From Ryuthela nishihirai (taxonomy: Eukaryota > Arthropoda > Arachnida > Araneae > Heptathelidae), in assembly GCA_038380435.1 (NCBI GenBank), contig JAWZYU010000001.1, forward strand, positions 19,200,001 through 19,264,000: a stretch of 64,000 nt of DNA, in the 5' to 3' direction. A program made the position numbers and the translations under genes. The first letter of the stretch is position 1. The number at the start of each line of letters is the position of its first letter. The notes below the pieces were generated by a model. It searched no databases, was not told the origin of the DNA, and saw only the letters and a list, made by a program, of their open reading frames with translations. Of this stretch, positions 32,601 to 51,560 are shown piece after piece.

Positions 32601-32893
32601 TCAGAGAATATATTATTAGTAGAGACACCTGTAAAGTTCTACAAACATTTCTTCAAACAGTTTGAAAACTGAGAGAAGTTTAATTGCTTTAAATAACAGA
32701 TATAGGAAATAGATTATAAATGTTTTTAATTTATTTTCTTTTCTTTTCAAGGATTCCATATTATTATTATTGTATTAAATTCTTTTCTGTAGTAAGATAT
32801 TCTAATTAAATAACTTTAATTTAGTAAATGAAGCTCATAGGCATCATTAAATATTTTTATTAAAGAAATTATTTGACCTACAAACGAGTAAAA

Positions 32894-33217
32894 TAGGGTG
32901 GGCCGAAAAAAATTCAAAATTTTTTTCAAGTCGTAATACCGCGGAAAAGTTGCGAATTGGGGAGACTAAAAATGGGTTAAAAAAGAAATAAAATCGGTTT
33001 ATATCTTCCGGTCGCGCATGTGCTCTACATTTTGCCGAAATTTGGAAAAATTCACATTTTTACGATAATTTTAACTTTTTTAAATTAGCCTCTTCCGGAA
33101 TGTAATAGCTCAAATTCTTATGTATTAGAACCACAGAAAACAATGTTGAAATACTATTTAAATCCATCAACATCTTCCGGTCGCGCATTGCCTTCAAAAT
33201 TAATAAAATTTAGAAAA
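32894..33217 (+). repeat. left terminal inverted repeat with duplicated subterminal motif
   Basis: Within this arm the 17-mer ATCTTCCGGTCGCGCAT occurs twice, at 33003-33019 and 33172-33188. The mirror arm has it at about 35173-35189 and, with one change, at 35003-35019. Such subterminal repeats are plausible transposase-binding sites. Confidence 0.85.
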
Positions 33218-33237
33218 AAAATTACAAATAAAGGTGT

Positions 33238-34710
33238 TTGCACGACGTTGGATTAATTACCGATTCTGATGTCTCCCATATTATAGACAAAAACGAAATA
33301 AGAAGAGGAAAACAAAATGTTAGGGCTGAATTTTGTAGTAAATCTGACGAATTTCCACTACAAGGTCTCTGTTGGGAGGAAGGACGACACGTTAGTGGTA
33401 GATCTAGCTCTTTCGAAAAGGTTCCGTAGAGTAAAAAAGGAAGAGCATTACTCGCTAATTCAAGAACCTGGTTCAGTCTACATCGGCCATGTTACTCCAA
33501 CTTCTGGAAGTTCTGAAGATATTGTCACTACTATTATTTCTTATCTGTCCGGTCGTGGTATTTCTCTTGAAAAATTAGTTGTCATAGGATGTGATGGCAC
33601 TGCTGTTAATACAGGTTGGAAAAACGGTCTGATTCGCCGAATCGAAATACATTTGGGGAAACCGTTAGAATGGTCAGTTTGCCTTCTCCATTTCAATGAA
33701 CTGCCATTCCGGTATCTGTTTCAATACCTAGACGGTAAATCAACGGGTTCAAAATCTTTGAGAGGGCCAATCGGTGAAAAGCTAAGTGGCTGCGAAAATC
33801 ATCTAGTGATTGGCTTCAAGAGTCAAGTTCAAACGTCTAGTGATTGGCTTCAGTATTGGCTGTCAGATCCCCACAATAGACAGAAGTATACTAAGTAAGG
33901 ATCAGCAATATCTACTCGATATTTCCATGGCAATAAAGTCGGGAAACTGTAAAGAGGATTTGGCTGTACGAGATCCTGGTCCTTTGTCACACTCGAGGTG
34001 GTTGACAACAGCAAATCGAACTCTCAGATTGTACTTAAGTGAAGAAAGTCACACACCTGAACTTCAAGAAATAGTTGTATTTATTTTGAAGTCATACATG
34101 CCAATGTGGTTTAGTATTAAAACAAGTAAATACTTTACAGAGGGACCAAAACTTGTGTACCAATCAATACAATCTTCAAGGTACCTGCCTGAAGATTTAC
34201 GTAATATTGTCGACCCTGTGATCGAACGAAATGGCTTTTTCGCTCATCCAGAACATTTAATGTTAGCCATGACACAAGATAATACAAAACACATAAGAGA
34301 GCTCGGACTTCGACGAATTCTAAAGGCGAGATAGTTAGATCAAAAGAAACAACTATCAGAACGTTCATGCCGCCAAAACTCAATTTCAAGGCTCAAGACT
34401 ACTCGGAAATATTAACTGGATGGACTGTGATTTATCTTCTCCCCCATTATTAAAAGATATCAGTGACGACGAGATTAAATCACATATTCAAAGTGACTCA
34501 GTCCCTAATTGGGATATAACATTCAAGACATTCCCAGTTCACACACAGGCAGTTGAACGATGTGTGAAACTCGTGACAGAAGCCTCAGAAAAAGTTTGCG
34601 GAGCTGAGTCTAGGGATGGTTTTATCAGAACGACTCTGCTGTCAAGGTCAACCATGCCTAACTTCGTCCATAAATCACATTTCAAAGTACCTTCAGCTAA
34701 GAATGAGTGA
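33238..34710 (+). pseudogene. transposase-like protein of the long-TIR element, broken
   Basis: Frame 1 from 33238 gives HDVGLITDSDVSHIIDKNEI, with no ATG and probably missing its N-terminus. Near 33345 it shifts to frame 2, which runs through GRKDDTLVVDLALS, YIGHVTPTSGSSED, VVIGCDGTAVNTGWKNG and CLLHFNELPFRYLFQYLDGK. Near 33802 a 34 bp tandem duplication of CTAGTGATTGGCTTCA plus 18 bp shifts the frame again. The rest reads ISMAIKSGNCKED, PLSHSRWLTTANRTLRLYLS and NGFFAHPEHLMLAMTQDN. A stop at 34332 precedes a final block, FPVHTQAVERCVKLVTEASE. GCDG may carry a catalytic Asp of an RNase-H-like fold. I recall related uncharacterised proteins in arthropods and cnidarians, but the superfamily name is unknown to me. 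Confidence 0.75.
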
Positions 34711-34974
34711 AAACGGAGATGTTCAATAGTTCAACATGAGTTTCTTGGACTTAGACTCTTCATACAAAAACTTAGTTTTTTCAATAAAAACATCTGTTTA
34801 TAAATATTACTAATGGTCTAAAATAATTTGTTTTTAAACATTTAAACTTGTATTCAATAAAGAACAAATATAAAGAACATGTAAGTAGTTAGTGTTTTTT
34901 TCACCTTAAACTGTGATCTATCTTAAATTAATAAAAAAATCATATTAAAAATCATATCTTAAACTATGATTTTT

Positions 34975-35298
34975 TTTCAAAATTTCATTAATTTTGAAGG
35001 CAATGCGCGACCAGAAGATGTTGATGGATTTAAATAGTATTTAAACATTGTTTTCTGTGGTTCTAATACATAAGAATTTGAGCTATTACATTCGGGAAGA
35101 GGCTAATTTAAAAATGTTAAAAATTATCGTAAAAATGTGAATTTTTCCAAATTTCGGCAAAATTTAGAGCACATGCGCGACCGGAAGATATGAACCGATT
35201 TTATTTCTTTTTTAATCCCTTTTTAGTCTCCCCAATTTGCAACTTTTCCGCGGTATTACGACTTGAAAAAAAATTTTGAATTTTTTCGGCCCACCCTA
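34975..35298 (-). repeat. right terminal inverted repeat
   Basis: This is the reverse complement of 32894-33217 with about a dozen differences. It keeps both subterminal CGCGACC-GAAGAT motifs (one with CCAGAAG instead of CCGGAAG). Confidence 0.85.
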
Positions 35299-35306
35299 GA
35301 GTACAA

Positions 35307-37876: not shown

Positions 37877-40800
37877 CTACGGAGGTCCAACCAGAGAGTG
37901 CAATTTAGTTCTCCAAGCAAGTCTATCCTGAGCTACATCTACTGCATCTGGCCACTGCACCCCAATTCTAACAAGGTCCTGTTTGACATTGTCTGCCCAC
38001 CGCATCCTAGGTCTCCCTTTCTTTCTGAGGCCTTTAGGCACACTGTTCATAACCCTATTCGCCAATCTATAATTATTCATACGGGCAACATGGCCAAACC
38101 AGCGGAGTCTCTCTCTGCACAATATGATGCTTAAAGGAGGTTGCAGACTCCTTTGCCTAACCTCATCATTAGTTACAAAGTTGAACCACCTAATGCCCAA
38201 GATAATGCGTAAGCATCTAGAATCAAAAGAATCTAGTTTCCTGTTATCTTGTTTACACAGCGTCCAGGTTTCACTACCATAACTAACCCTAGAAAGAACC
38301 AAATTATTATACAGTCTAATTTTAGTCTTTAGGTGTATACGCCTATTTCTCCACACTCCCCATAGATTCTTAAAAGTCCCGGCAGCAATCCCTATTCGTC
38401 TGTTAATCTCATGCCGCACATCACCACTATCTGTTACATAGCTCCCAAGGTAATTAAACTGTGACACCTGCTCAAGACTGCAACCATTCAGATTAACTGA
38501 ATCACAGCCTGCCTGACCAATTTTCATCACTTTAGTTTTCTCTCTGTTTATAACCAAACCTACTCTACTACCAGTCTCATCAACAGCTCGAATGAAAGAG
38601 TTCATCTCATCAACATCATTTGCCAAAGGGGCTAAATCACCAGCATAATCTAAATCAGAAATTTTCGTATCTCCAGCCAATTTAAGGCCAAAATCTTTCC
38701 CTTGAAGTGAATTTGGCATAACATAATCAATAACCAAGCTAAAGAGAAAAGGAGACAAAATGCACCCTTGTCGAACACCAGAAGGAATGCTAAACCAATT
38801 GCTACAAGCCTTACCAACTCTCACACACGACTGTGTTATTATAGAGAGCTTTCATTATGCTAACTAACTTCTCAAGTATACCATATGATCTCACAATCAA
38901 CCACAAATTATGACGATCAACAGAATCGAAAGTCTTTTTGAAATCAACAAAGCTAGCAACTAAAGGTTTCTGAAACTCTAAACATTTCTCAAGAATCTGC
39001 CTAAGTGAAAATATCTGATCACACATCTCCTACCACTTCTGAATCCACATTGCTCATCACGCAATTGACTGTCAACCAGATTCTTAATTCTATTAAGCAC
39101 AATCATGGAAAGAACTTTACCTGGAACAGAGAGTAAGCTGATACCCCTATAGTTATCACAAGAACTGCGATGACCTTTTTTGAAAATAGGGATAACAATA
39201 GCTCTGGTAAAATCCTTAGGATCCATGCCTTTATCATATAAGATATTCAGAATTTCATTCATCCAAGTGGTAACTGAAACATTCCCAGCACTACGCATTT
39301 CGGTGCTAATTTCATCTACCCCTGGGGATTTATGTAGTTTAAGTTTAGAAACAGCTAAAATAACTTCAGATTGTGTTATAGGGACAACATTAAAGCCACC
39401 AATGCATCTATCATCATTGCAAACAATGGGAGTAGAACTAACTACATTGTTTAGAACATCACTGAAATGCTCAGCCCACCTAGCCATGACAGAATCCTCC
39501 CCTTCTATAACCTTACCTTGTTTATCCTTCAATCCCTGTATACCTGTCCGTTTTCTACCACACAAAACATTAACTATCTGGTACAGCTCTCTGCTGTTGT
39601 GCTGCCTAACTGCTTCCTCGGCTTTGTCAGCAAAACCATCAAGCCAAAGATTATTATCAGCAGCTAACTGATCTTTTACACGTTTATTACGTTCTCTGTA
39701 ATGCTTTCTATTAGGACTACTAGGGTATTAATTAAGGACATTCCTGCAGTTCTTTCTTTCCGAAATAAGCTCAAGTGCCTTATCACTCAGATAATTCTGT
39801 CTCTTCTGCTCCTTTTTTCCTAAAAGAGTACTGTTAGTGTCCAAAAAAGCCTGTTTAAAATGATTCCATTCTTCCTCAACTTCAGTAGTAAGCATACCAT
39901 GACTGTCATAATGACTAAGTAACCTATCATGGTAAGCTTTGGCTATAACTGGATCTTGCAGAGCTTCAGTATTAAAAGCAAATTTTTTAACCCAAGCACA
40001 ACACTTTTTAAGTTTAAGTTACAAGACACTTTTAACAAGATAATGGTCAGATCCAATTTCAGCTCCCCTATATGACCTGGTATTCCTAACAGAACTAGCC
40101 CATTTGCTGTTAATTAATATATAACCAATCATATTCTTATGCAGCCCATCGGGTGAAACCCATGTGTACTTATGCATGTCGCGGTGTTTGTAATAAATGT
40201 TAGTTATTCTGAATCCATTGAGTTTACTTACCTGTAGGAGACGTTGCCCATTGCCATTGCAGCTACCAATACCAAAAGAGCCTATTACTCCTGTCCAAAG
40301 GTCAGAGTCAGTACCAACTTTGGCATTGAAGTCACCAAGAACAAGGGTAATATCTCCTTTCTTGATTGGGGCGGGGGTGGCTCAGTCGGTAGCGCGCCAG
40401 GCTCGTAATCTGTAGTTCCCAGGTTCGAGTCCCAGCTGGGTGAGCGTTGAGATTTATCTCCGCAAAATTCCCCGCCTTGCCCACGGTCAGTAGGGGACAC
40501 CGATGGGCTTGGAAAGGCCGCCGTCAGTCTGATGGGACGTAAAGCTGTGGCCCCGTGTGCGGGAGAGCCATACCCTGTGCACGTTAAAGAACACGCTGGA
40601 TGGCCTTGACGGGAGGCTACCATCTGTCTCCCAACAGCTGTTCCAGTGGGTCCCCTCCCCCAATCTTCTCTGAGCCTTCGGGGTCCATGTGTCCTGGCCA
40701 TTTAGCCCATGGTGTGCAAAAAAGTGCCGCTCAGAGGTAAAACAACCCAACTCAAATCCTTTCTTGACAGAATTCAAAATATCCTGAACTTGTTCATAAA

Positions 40801-41245
40801 ACCTATCTTTCTCATCCTCATCGGCATCCTCAGTGGGGGCATAACAGCAGATAACATTCAGGTCTTTAACGCTTGTCTGAAATTTTGCTGTAAGAAACCT
40901 TTCATTAATGCACTCATATCGTAGAGGAGCATCACTAGCGTGTCTGCTGAGAAGCAGACCCACGCCTTTGTGATACTTATTTTCGTCCCTCCCTGAAAAG
41001 AGAAATTTAAGATTATTTTTAAGAATATGACCTTTATCTGTCCATCTGGTCTCTTGCAAGCCGAGAATATCTAAATTATAATGGTAGAATTCTTGTGTGA
41101 GGACATCAAGAGAAAAAGCTCTGTGCAGAGTCCTCACATTCCAACTACCTATGGAGAGAAAATGGTTAGTGGGATGTTTAAAGAAACTATGTTTATTGAG
41201 AGAGGGAATGCCGACAATATCAAACAGCCCACTAATCACAGGCAT
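37877..41245 (-). pseudogene. RTE endonuclease-reverse transcriptase, disrupted
   Basis: The N-terminal endonuclease (from 41245) shows IGSWNVRTL, LGLQETRW and ICCYAPTEDADE. It is split by a SINE1 at 40366-40753 and resumes with LVLGDFNAKVGTDSD and later SDHYLV, so the catalytic D, N and H of an AP-type endonuclease are all present. The RT part shows YRGISLLSVPGKVLS, EQCGFRSGRR, SFVDFKKTFDSVDR and GVRQGCILSPFLFSLVIDYV. The catalytic box reads DLDYAGDLAPLA: the second Asp of YADD is Gly. The RT frame shifts near 39000 and again near 38820. The C-terminus has WFGHVARMNNYRLANRVMNS and KKGRPRMRW, typical of RTE. This copy cannot be active. Confidence 0.9.
40355..40767 (+). mobile_element. SINE1 inserted in the RTE endonuclease, 11-bp target duplication
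   Basis: A near-consensus SINE1 (about 40366-40753) is bordered by TCCTTTCTTGA at 40355-40365 and 40757-40767. The RTE protein frame stops at the SINE and resumes beyond it, giving independent proof of insertion. The relative order is RTE first, SINE1 second. Confidence 0.95.
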
Positions 41246-43744: not shown

Positions 43745-44690
43745 TCGGTGCCAAATGGGGGAAAATCCTCCCATCCCGGAACCACCAGAACATTACGATG
43801 TGGACTCAGGAGAGGAAGAGGAAGAGAAGGAAGAAACAGGAACATAGGAAAAAGGATCTGTAAATCCCGACTTCACACCCACAACATTGGATTGACCGCA
43901 GAATATCATGCAGAACGAGTTGAATGATCTTGTTAGAGTTCTGGAGTTGTCAAAGAGCATGTCAGAATTCCTCGGATCCAAACTGCAGCAGTGGAATCTC
44001 TTTGAGAGAAATATGCAAGTAAGTGCATATCGTAGCCGCCAAAAAGATCTGATATTGTTCTTTACCATGGTAGGTAACCTGGTTGCTTGCAAAGATGTTG
44101 ACAGTTTATTCACATCCATCCACATGACACATACTCCAGAAGAATGGAGGTTATTTATAAATTTCTCAAAACTAAGTGTGAAAGCCATTCTTCTCCACAA
44201 TGAGAACGTGTTGCCTTCTGTTCCAGCAGACCATGGTATTAATATGAAGGAAACTTATGACAATATTAAACAATTACTTCATTGCATAAATTATGATAAA
44301 TACAAGTGGCATATTTGTGTGGATTTAAGAGTCATTGCTCTTTTGCTTGGATATACAAAGTTCCGTTGCTTCCTTTGTAAATGGAATAGCACAGACAAAG
44401 CATCTTAATACATGAAAAGGATTTGGCCTTCTCGACAATCACTGGAGCGAGGGAAGAAGAATATACAGCATTATTCATTGGTACAATACACAAAGATTTT
44501 GTTGACACCTTTACACATAAAATTGGGCCTAATGAAGAATTTTGTCAAGGCTATGGATCAGATGCAAACTGCCTTTCTGTACCTTCAACAGAAATTTCCA
44601 AGATTTGGTGATGTAAAGATAAAAGAAGGTGTTTTTACCAGTCCAGATATTCGCTCACTGCTACAATTATGAGGTATTTGATCTTATCAT
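43745..44690 (+). pseudogene. relic of a widespread uncharacterised arthropod repeat protein
   Basis: The + strand has an acidic lead-in (EPPEHYDVDSGEEEEEKEE), then from 43908 an ORF with LQQWNLFERNMQVSAYRSRQ, THTPEEWRLFINFSKLSVKA, HNENVLPSVP, MKETYDNIKQLL and LGYTKFRCFLCKWNS. A single TAA at 44406-44408 interrupts. In the same frame MKRIWPSRQSLERG and LTPLHIKLGLMKNFVKAMDQ follow to 44672. From memory, near-identical blocks recur in many arthropod genomes as unnamed proteins; I know no domain or function. The CFLCKW dipole of cysteines may bind zinc. After 44672 the frame shifts and a short duplication of ATGGAGAGCATGG appears. Confidence 0.7.
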
Positions 44691-46495: not shown

Positions 46496-47601
46496 AAAAT
46501 ATCTCAAATATACATAAATGATTTGGCTAATATTAATTTTGATAGTAAATTATATATGTATGCTGATGATACAGTGCTAATCAACTTCCACTCTGATTTA
46601 GAATACGCTATTTGCAATCTACAAAGTGATTTCAATAAAGCAGTTAAATGGTTTTCTCTTAACAAACTGAGTGTAAACGAGAAAAAAACTAAATTTATGT
46701 GTATTGGTTCTCAACAACCTACACTTAATAGAAGAATTACTAAGCATCGAATAAGTTGTACTAGGCTGGATGGTTTATCACCTGGTACATGCAATTGTCC
46801 TAAAATAGAAGAAGTAAACGAAATAATTTACCTACGCTTGAAAATTAATTCGAAAATGAAATGGAATAAACATATTGATTGGATGTGTTCAAGACTACGA
46901 TTTGTAGCATTTAAAATTAGGAAACTTAACATGTTTGTTGATACACAGAAAACTATTTTAGTATATAAAGCACTTTTTTGAATCTATAATTAGGTATGGG
47001 ATAACAGTTTATGGGACAGCCTTTAAGACAGAATTAAATAAAATTAAAAGAATTTTGTGTAATACAGAAGTTAAATATTCCCTTACAACGAAAGATGATA
47101 TATTCAGTTTGTTCAAAATTTTACCTATAGAAAGTTTATATGTGTTTGTTTCTATTATCAATAACTTCTTTGATGATACCTATAAGCAAAATATTTGCCA
47201 CAATAAGTTTACTAGAAAAAAGGCTATGGGTTTTTTGAAACAACCAAAATTTTATAATAATTACGGACGAAATTCCAAAGAATATCAAATTCCCCACCTA
47301 TTTAACTTGCTTCCTAGAGAAATAGTTAACTTAAAAAAAATTTGTGAGGTTAAAGAAAAATTATTTCAATGGTTGATGAAAAAGTGATGTTTTTATTTGG
47401 AAACTTTCATCATTTTGTCGGTTTTCTTTCTCATTTATTCCTTTTTTTCTCTCCTTTATTTTTTGTACTACTGAGGCAATCTAGATGATATCTGTAAAAA
47501 CATATATGTACATTCCCGCTGATAAGCTTCGGCTTAGTGGGATTTTTTTTATGTAATATAATTATAAATAATACTTAATGAAAATAAATTTGAATTTGAA
47601 T
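46495..47601 (+). pseudogene. CR1/Jockey-like LINE 3' fragment, truncated inside the RT domain
   Basis: The fragment starts SQIYINDLANINFDSKLYMY, then YADDTVLINFHSDLE with an intact YADD box, LQSDFNKAVKWFSLNKLSVN and KKTKFMCIG, matching the RT palm end and thumb of Jockey/CR1 LINEs. A frameshift or stop at 46979 is followed by a second frame (47055-47387) with the C-terminal domain (FNLLPREIVNLKKI). The non-coding 3' end carries TTGAATTTGAATGG, a short tandem tail. 5' truncation is typical of LINE insertion. It sits inside the minisatellite. Confidence 0.85.
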
Positions 47602-50458: not shown

Positions 50459-51560
50459 TTTTTAGGTATCCAGCTGGGAGTACGATAATCTCTCCACTTC
50501 ACTAAGATGTCTTTTTTGCGGTCCCGGTCCAAGATTTTTTCCACTGCGTAGAGTTCAGGAAGATTTATTTTCTGCAGTTCTCGGCTATAGAAAGTTCCAC
50601 GTATCATGTTACCATCACTATCTACCACTTCGTAAACGAGAGGTGTTCTAGGTACGATTCTTTTCACCCCAAATATCTCTCGAGTCCACTGTTGCGACGC
50701 ACCTTTCTTGAATGGTAGCTTCAAACTGCTGGGTCTCACGCGAGATCTCCCTCTTTAAAACGGACAGGTCTGCCTGCTTTGGCGCTCCGTATAATCTCTC
50801 CCAGACGACACTCTCATTAAAGAGATCCACGTCCTTGGGAGCAAGGTCATGAGCTCGATCTTTGGAAGCATTATAACCCTTCACTATGGAATCCAGAACG
50901 TGTAAGAATCTAAAATTTTTATGTTTAATGAAATAAAACCATAATTTTTCTCTCAGGGTTCGATTAAGTCTTTCTACCAATGCAGCTTTCTTATCACTAT
51001 AAGACACGAAGAAGTGAATGTTTTTTTCTTTTAGGAATTTTTGAAAAACACGGTTTGTGAATTCTGTCCCCTGATCGGTGTTTAGAGTCGTGGTATCATG
51101 ACCCTGTGCTAGAATCTGTTCAAATGCTTCTTTCACAGCAATTCCTGTTTTTCTTTTTCACAGGAACCGCCCACGCATAGCGAGATAAAATATCGATGAC
51201 GACTAATATGTATCCATAACCATCATTAAATCGTGCAATATTTTTCACGAACATTAAATCCGCCTACCATTGTTGATCCAGACCTGTCACGTACGTTTGG
51301 TTCCTTCTGAATTTTCTCGTTGCCGGTCTGTGGAGAGCGTACGTCTCTTGACCTGCTAACCATTCTCTGACTGTCGTTCCTTCGGAATTTGCTCGTTGTC
51401 GGTCTGTGGAGAGTGTACGTCTCTTGACCTGCTAACCATTCTCTGACTGTCTTTGGATCCTGTCCAGTACTCTGGGATAATCGAGTCACCCCTCCATAGC
51501 TGCCAGGGTTCTTGGGATAGTAATAAGGTTTTTCCAATGCGTCGTTCATCGACCAGCAGT
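50443..51560 (-). pseudogene. Polinton retroviral-type integrase with chromodomain, frameshifted
   Basis: The N-terminal part lies at 51549-51380 (LEKPYYYPKNPGSYGGVTRL, then KTVREWLAGQETYTLHRP). The frame is broken at 51300-51455 by an imperfect tandem duplication of about 76 bp. The core (51136-50650) has NTDQGTEFTNRVFQKFL, with a catalytic Asp, and LVERLNRTLREKLWFYF, with the catalytic Glu about 34 residues later. Near 50700 the frame shifts to the C-terminal region (REIFGVKRIVPRTPLVYEVV), ending in a chromodomain-like AVEKILDRDRKKDILVKWRD then SWIPKKW. The family integrates DNA copies of the element; this copy is inactive. Confidence 0.8.

Follow-up and report, generated by a model that had tools for sequence, protein, structure and literature searches.

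Analysing a 64,000-nucleotide stretch of the genome of the spider Ryuthela nishihirai (Heptathelidae; assembly GCA_038380435.1, contig JAWZYU010000001.1, positions 19,200,001 to 19,264,000; hereafter the window), we characterised an element at positions 32886-35306 that most probably derives from a hAT-like DNA transposon of the cut-and-paste type and is decayed and non-autonomous. It is a deletion derivative bounded on both sides by 3' ends, the second one standing inverted in place of the 5' end, and represents a family abundant in the host genome, which we file as a divergent branch of hAT or as hAT's sister. This family differs from textbook hATs in its long terminal inverted repeats (TIRs), in the pair of subterminal motifs at each end and in a CxC N-terminal domain that has no convincing PDB match. 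No description of it was found in the papers searched.

Structure of the window copy

The two inverted arms of the element, at 32894-33222 (-) and 34969-35298 (+), were identical over 317 of 328 aligned columns, with 11 mismatches and 3 additional gap positions, and ended in the tips TAGGGTGGGCC and GGCCCACCCTA, respectively. Matches to TAGGGTGGGCCGAAAAAA with up to 3 mismatches were restricted, in the window, to these two tips (0.07 expected from shuffling). The element is bounded by 8-bp target site duplications, GAGTAAAA at 32886-32893 and GAGTACAA at 35299-35306 (neither assigned to a strand), identical at 7 of 8 bases; among flank lengths of 2-12, 8 alone gave a good match, the others agreeing at half of their bases at most, and 8-mers at the element's spacing matched at 7/8 or better at 38 of 61579 window positions. 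These results bear out three features reported by an earlier note on this DNA, i.e. long inverted repeats with about a dozen differences, shared termini and 8-bp flanks with one difference. A scan for the subterminal motif CTTCCGGTCGCGCAT returned four matches in the window, against 0.02 expected, two of them in the left arm (33005-33019 and 33174-33188, +) and two in the right arm (35003-35017, with 1 mismatch, and 35173-35187, -).

The same note had called the element structurally complete, which proved wrong: residues 1-291 of the transposase are uncoded, the native 5' end is missing, and both arms correspond to the 3' end. The right arm represents the authentic 3' end of the element (type T3). 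The left arm is an inverted copy of this end, being 95% identical to T3 and 76% identical to T5, the native 5' end. The 329-bp length of the window arms results from both being 3' ends, native repeats spanning ~180-220 bp.

Between the arms, the coding remnant was mapped by tblastn with P0094, a relative of 773 amino acids (aa) sharing 94% identity with the read-through query. It consists of five (+) stretches in three frames, starting at P0094 residue 292: 33238-33387 (residues 292-340, 84% identity), containing a frame break and aligning a Glu with the first catalytic Asp position (D338); 33374-33823 (residues 339-488, 94%), with the second catalytic Asp D412 and C441xxH444; 33831-34349 (residues 480-653, 97%), with R536-W537 and an in-frame stop near its end; 34322-34423 (residues 645-677, 71%), in another frame; and 34342-34710 (residues 652-773 and the stop codon, 82%), with the catalytic Glu E723. 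Residues 1-291 had no significant tblastn match in the whole window, the two matches returned lying elsewhere and being at chance level (E 6.9 and 8.2). The central protein-coding region of the earlier note is hence transposase-like, as claimed, but not intact, and because residues 1-291 are uncoded and the frame is broken, once at the first catalytic Asp, the window copy cannot yield a working enzyme. Downstream of the stop codon, a 3' untranslated part (34711-34968, +) extends to the right arm. At the junction between the left arm and residue 292 (33223-33237, +), common to four genomic copies (L009, L010, L011 and L019), the window copy has lost ~40 further bp that these retain.

Genomic copies and target sites

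In the 3.11-Gb host assembly, the left arm gave 924 first-look candidates; all 40 that were scored were 94-100% identical. For the copy counts, end matches had to be at least 120 bp long and to start within the first three bases of the tip; copies were left out if an end came within 30 bases of a boundary of the retrieved sequence, or if their sequence was identical to that of another copy. Stretches L009-L042 (n = 34) provided 27 two-ended and 7 single-ended copies (L021-L024, L032, L037 and L039), the remaining 7 two-ended copies being the window's own and six from L047-L074. The flanking 8-mers of these 34 two-ended copies matched at 8/8 bases in 18 cases, at 7 in 11, at 6 in one, at 5 in one and at 4 in three.

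The flanks of the window insertion (upstream of 32886 and from 35307 on) recur in L009, L010 and L011 with 95-99.5% identity, ~200 bp being common to all four copies on each side and 0.9-1 kb on the right in L009 and L011. Sharing their outer flanks, these four copies therefore represent one insertion, later copied together with its surroundings, and the window insertion sits inside a larger repeated unit. The flanks of L061 and L068 are also in common. Merging each of these groups left 30 insertions, 26 of which carried a duplication of at least 7/8 bases (25 of 29 after also merging L019 with L026). L019 and L026 are distinct derivatives that share the 8-mer CTGTTCAT and have 81-85% similar flanks, representing either two insertions at the same spot in copies of one host repeat or a single insertion.

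The duplications revealed a target preference, with T at position 2 in 22/26, A at position 7 in 22/26, and the pattern nTnnnnAn in 18/26 (p 2e-13; 17/25 after the L019/L026 merge), the commonest bases being ATGTACAT. The pattern nnnTAnnn was enriched over background (8/26, p 0.002), clearly more weakly than nTnnnnAn.

Derivatives of the window type have moved. L019, 96.7% identical to the window copy, lies between other flanks with its own duplication (CTGTTCAT/CTGTTCGT), and the two-3'-end derivative has therefore itself transposed; because window-type copies do not encode the transposase's N-terminal part, another source must presumably have provided the enzyme.

Two end types and deletion derivatives

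Copies in native order carry T5 opposite T3. Upstream of residue 1, T5 was matched in 16/16 loci (L059-L074), in two of them (L065 and L074) over part of its length, its tip lying ~530-550 bp from the start codon (695 in L064; tip missing in L074). Overall, T5 and T3 agree at 252 of 316 aligned positions, being almost the same for the first ~180 bp and divergent beyond. Both contain the subterminal motif twice, at positions 112/113 and 282/284 (0-2 mismatches). The 34 distinct two-ended copies comprised 22 T3-T3 and 12 T5/T3 copies, a T3-T3 share biased by the T3-type query. Inverted arms measured 179-219 bp in all 12 T5/T3 copies (84-95% identical). In T3-T3 copies they ranged from 329 bp in the window up to a whole-element palindrome in L041, near-perfect (97%) over all 2387 bp and bounded by an 8/8 duplication, the exception being L016, whose first arm ends at 190 bp and then resumes. 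More than half of the T3-T3 copies (12/22) contained the 3' half of the gene in both directions, coding for residues 1-291 was seen in none of the 22, and duplications of at least 7/8 bases flanked 20/22 of them versus 9/12 T5/T3 copies.

The window copy might instead be a complete long-TIR element, the differing 5' ends found elsewhere belonging to another family, as its near-perfect, duplication-bounded arms and the commonness of T3-T3 copies in the sample could suggest. However, T5 lies upstream of residue 1 of the same protein at all 16 loci and stands opposite T3 in 12 two-ended copies, while every T3-T3 copy lacks coding for residues 1-291, making this explanation extremely improbable compared with a deletion derivative.

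The transposase family

The read-through query matched 855 database relatives at E <= 0.001, of which the best 120 were listed. Named sources among the matches listed in this and two further searches included the spider Araneus ventricosus, a stick insect, beetles, flies, a leafhopper, an ant, moths and a leech, the closest named matches being spider proteins with 79-95% identity, as would be expected of a spider host. The listed relatives were annotated as hypothetical, unnamed or uncharacterised, some as 'DUF4371' and one as 'DUF4817' domain-containing, in keeping with the earlier note, which had expected a protein known only from unnamed hypothetical entries. No precomputed Pfam domain was present in the 93 and 120 records listed in two relative searches, and such copies therefore pass as hypothetical genes in arthropod annotations.

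In an alignment of 68 members chosen from the best 120 of 855 (717-789 aa, median 759), D338, D412, C441, H444, R536, W537 and E723 were invariant in 68/68, as were the N-terminal cysteines C132, C134, C157 and C159. The CxC cluster (P0094 residues 132-159) varies in size: some members have a short form (CxC, few residues, CxC), and four CxC pairs are present in others, among them P0094, to which the window copy is most closely related. In one relative from Amyelois transitella (P0213, 652 aa), the family's N-terminal part runs, directly downstream of the second catalytic Asp motif, into sequence carrying the piggyBac-type Pfam domain PF13843; this probably reflects either insertion of a piggyBac element into the gene or the fusion of two genes in the model.

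Placement relative to hAT and P elements

The structure prediction suggested in the earlier note, in search of an RNase-H fold with D/D/E geometry, recovered a hAT/Hermes-type catalytic fold presenting D338, D412, E723 and the R-W pair. Foldseek placed Hermes at the top (E 1.1e-4), with a structural match extending to model residue 757. The tip pattern [T/C]AGNGNNG, derived from plant hATs as reported in PMC6027215, was present at 64/68 tips, all from the 34 two-ended copies of this one family, and the duplications have the 8-bp length of hATs. The nTnnnnAn preference is the target pattern reported for Hermes (PMC10368747) and, earlier, for hobo (PMC3276498). Of the two possibilities left by the earlier note, an unrecognised superfamily or a divergent hAT/P relative, these results favour a hAT-like cut-and-paste element. 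We nevertheless file the family as hAT-like rather than canonical hAT, because a hATC domain and short TIRs were not found: no hATC dimerisation domain was recognisable at the sequence level with Pfam (10 full-length relatives, E <= 10), as the earlier note had remarked, and reported hAT TIRs span 5-27 bp (PMC3517528) or 10-25 bp (PMC3942097).

Several observations weigh against this placement. Pfam returned no hAT, BED, THAP or other transposase family for 10/10 full-length relatives at E <= 10, although HMMER filters drop most matches above E 0.1; the weak matches listed for them belonged to unrelated families, all below cut-offs. Foldseek ranked the P element transposase (6p5a, E 1.6e-4) right beside Hermes, whose residues were matched here by their order along the sequence, and some spacings differ: 125 residues versus 71 in Hermes for D412-W537, 32 versus 20 for D412-H444, and 184 (median) versus 253 for W537-E723. 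Native arms of 179-219 bp (12/12) contrast with the short TIRs that are usual, though not strictly defining, for hATs; 4/29 insertions (L028, L035, L036 and L042) match at just 4-5/8 bases; and nTnnnnAn, which also fits the P-element target motif GTCCGGAC (as given in PMC3276498), does not separate Ac-family hATs from P.

These similarities with P raise the possibility of a divergent P-superfamily element resembling Galileo, which, in the account of PMC3688188, likewise combines long TIRs, more than one putative transposase-binding site and structurally variable derivatives. The Foldseek match to the P element transposase, the 8-bp duplications and the compatibility of nTnnnnAn with GTCCGGAC would agree with it. 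Galileo, however, encodes a P-type transposase with THAP, whereas the top structural match here is hAT, without a THAP match in the Pfam search above; the commonest duplication bases are ATGTACAT rather than GTCCGGAC, and the tips follow the hAT pattern. We therefore regard a P affiliation as very unlikely.

A separate, unrecognised superfamily, sharing the RNase-H core and helical insertion with hAT and P and branching before hAT, is also unlikely in our assessment, the hAT-type fold and tips standing on the other side. It would account for the long TIRs and for the lack of a Pfam transposase match, the sole DUF4371 match (1/44 members of a wider set, 25 of 27 families being listed) having a non-significant E of 0.097. 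It would also agree with the lack of any PDB sequence matching the family profile below E 1 and of a convincing PDB fold match for the N-terminal CxC domain. More ambitiously, the family might be a superfamily in its own right, so far undescribed, occurring widely among arthropods and placed as the sister group of hAT. It would possess a CxC domain of its own for DNA binding and long ends with paired binding sites, and two identical 3' ends would suffice for transposition, allowing palindromic two-3'-end derivatives to spread; we consider this unlikely as a whole.

Comparison with known systems and proposed mechanism

Compared with Hermes (Musca domestica; hAT, Ac family), this family has TIRs of ~180-220 bp instead of 17 bp and a transposase of ~773 aa instead of 612 aa. 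Unlike Hermes, it gives no hAT Pfam match, and its N-terminal domain, without a BED match, bears the invariant C132xC134 and C157xC159. Buster hATs (TcBuster, Mar) share its 8-bp duplication and hAT-type tips, but their duplications are reported as nnnTAnnn (PMC3517528, PMC3499496), the minor pattern here (8/26 against 18/26 for nTnnnnAn). As described for Ds and other internally deleted non-autonomous hATs (PMC3260210), deleted copies are bounded by transposable ends; unlike Ds, many combine two 3' ends that are inverted relative to each other, the extreme case being the full 2387-bp palindrome of L041.

Because all 16 loci with residue 1 (L059-L074) are internally deleted, none being uninterrupted, the parent element is inferred: ~3.4 kb long, it would consist of T5, a gene for a ~773-aa transposase and T3, its ends sharing an inverted repeat of ~180-220 bp with two CTTCCGGTCGCGCAT-like motifs each. 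The N-terminal CxC domain, or the core, may bind these paired motifs, and the RNase-H core (D338, D412, E723; C441xxH444, R536-W537) would cut at the tips as in hATs, presumably through hairpin chemistry by analogy with Hermes, before the ends are joined across an 8-bp stagger with the preference nTnnnnAn. In the window derivative, the 5' end was swapped for an inverted second 3' end, with loss of residues 1-291. Such two-3'-end derivatives have nevertheless moved, other copies presumably supplying the transposase in trans and the transposase presumably tolerating two 3' ends.

Hermes transposase is reported to bind its left end much more strongly than its right (PMC10368747). The spread of two-3'-end derivatives suggests that end asymmetry matters less in this family than in Hermes, and provides a natural way of testing whether two different ends are required by a hAT-like transposase, as would follow from the Hermes left-end/right-end model. 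As a long-TIR relative of a well-studied transposase, the family also raises the question of whether end length reflects extra sites read by a new DNA-binding domain.

Other features of the window

A 166-aa open frame at 43908-44408 (+) had no Pfam match and is reminiscent of other unclassified arthropod element proteins. An integrase-core (rve) relic lies at 50648-51136 (-), below the Pfam cut-off. Relics of non-long-terminal-repeat (non-LTR) retroelements occupy 37877-41245 (-) and 46523-46981 (+), with reverse transcriptase (RVT_1, the second such match below cut-off) and endonuclease (Exo_endo_phos) matches.
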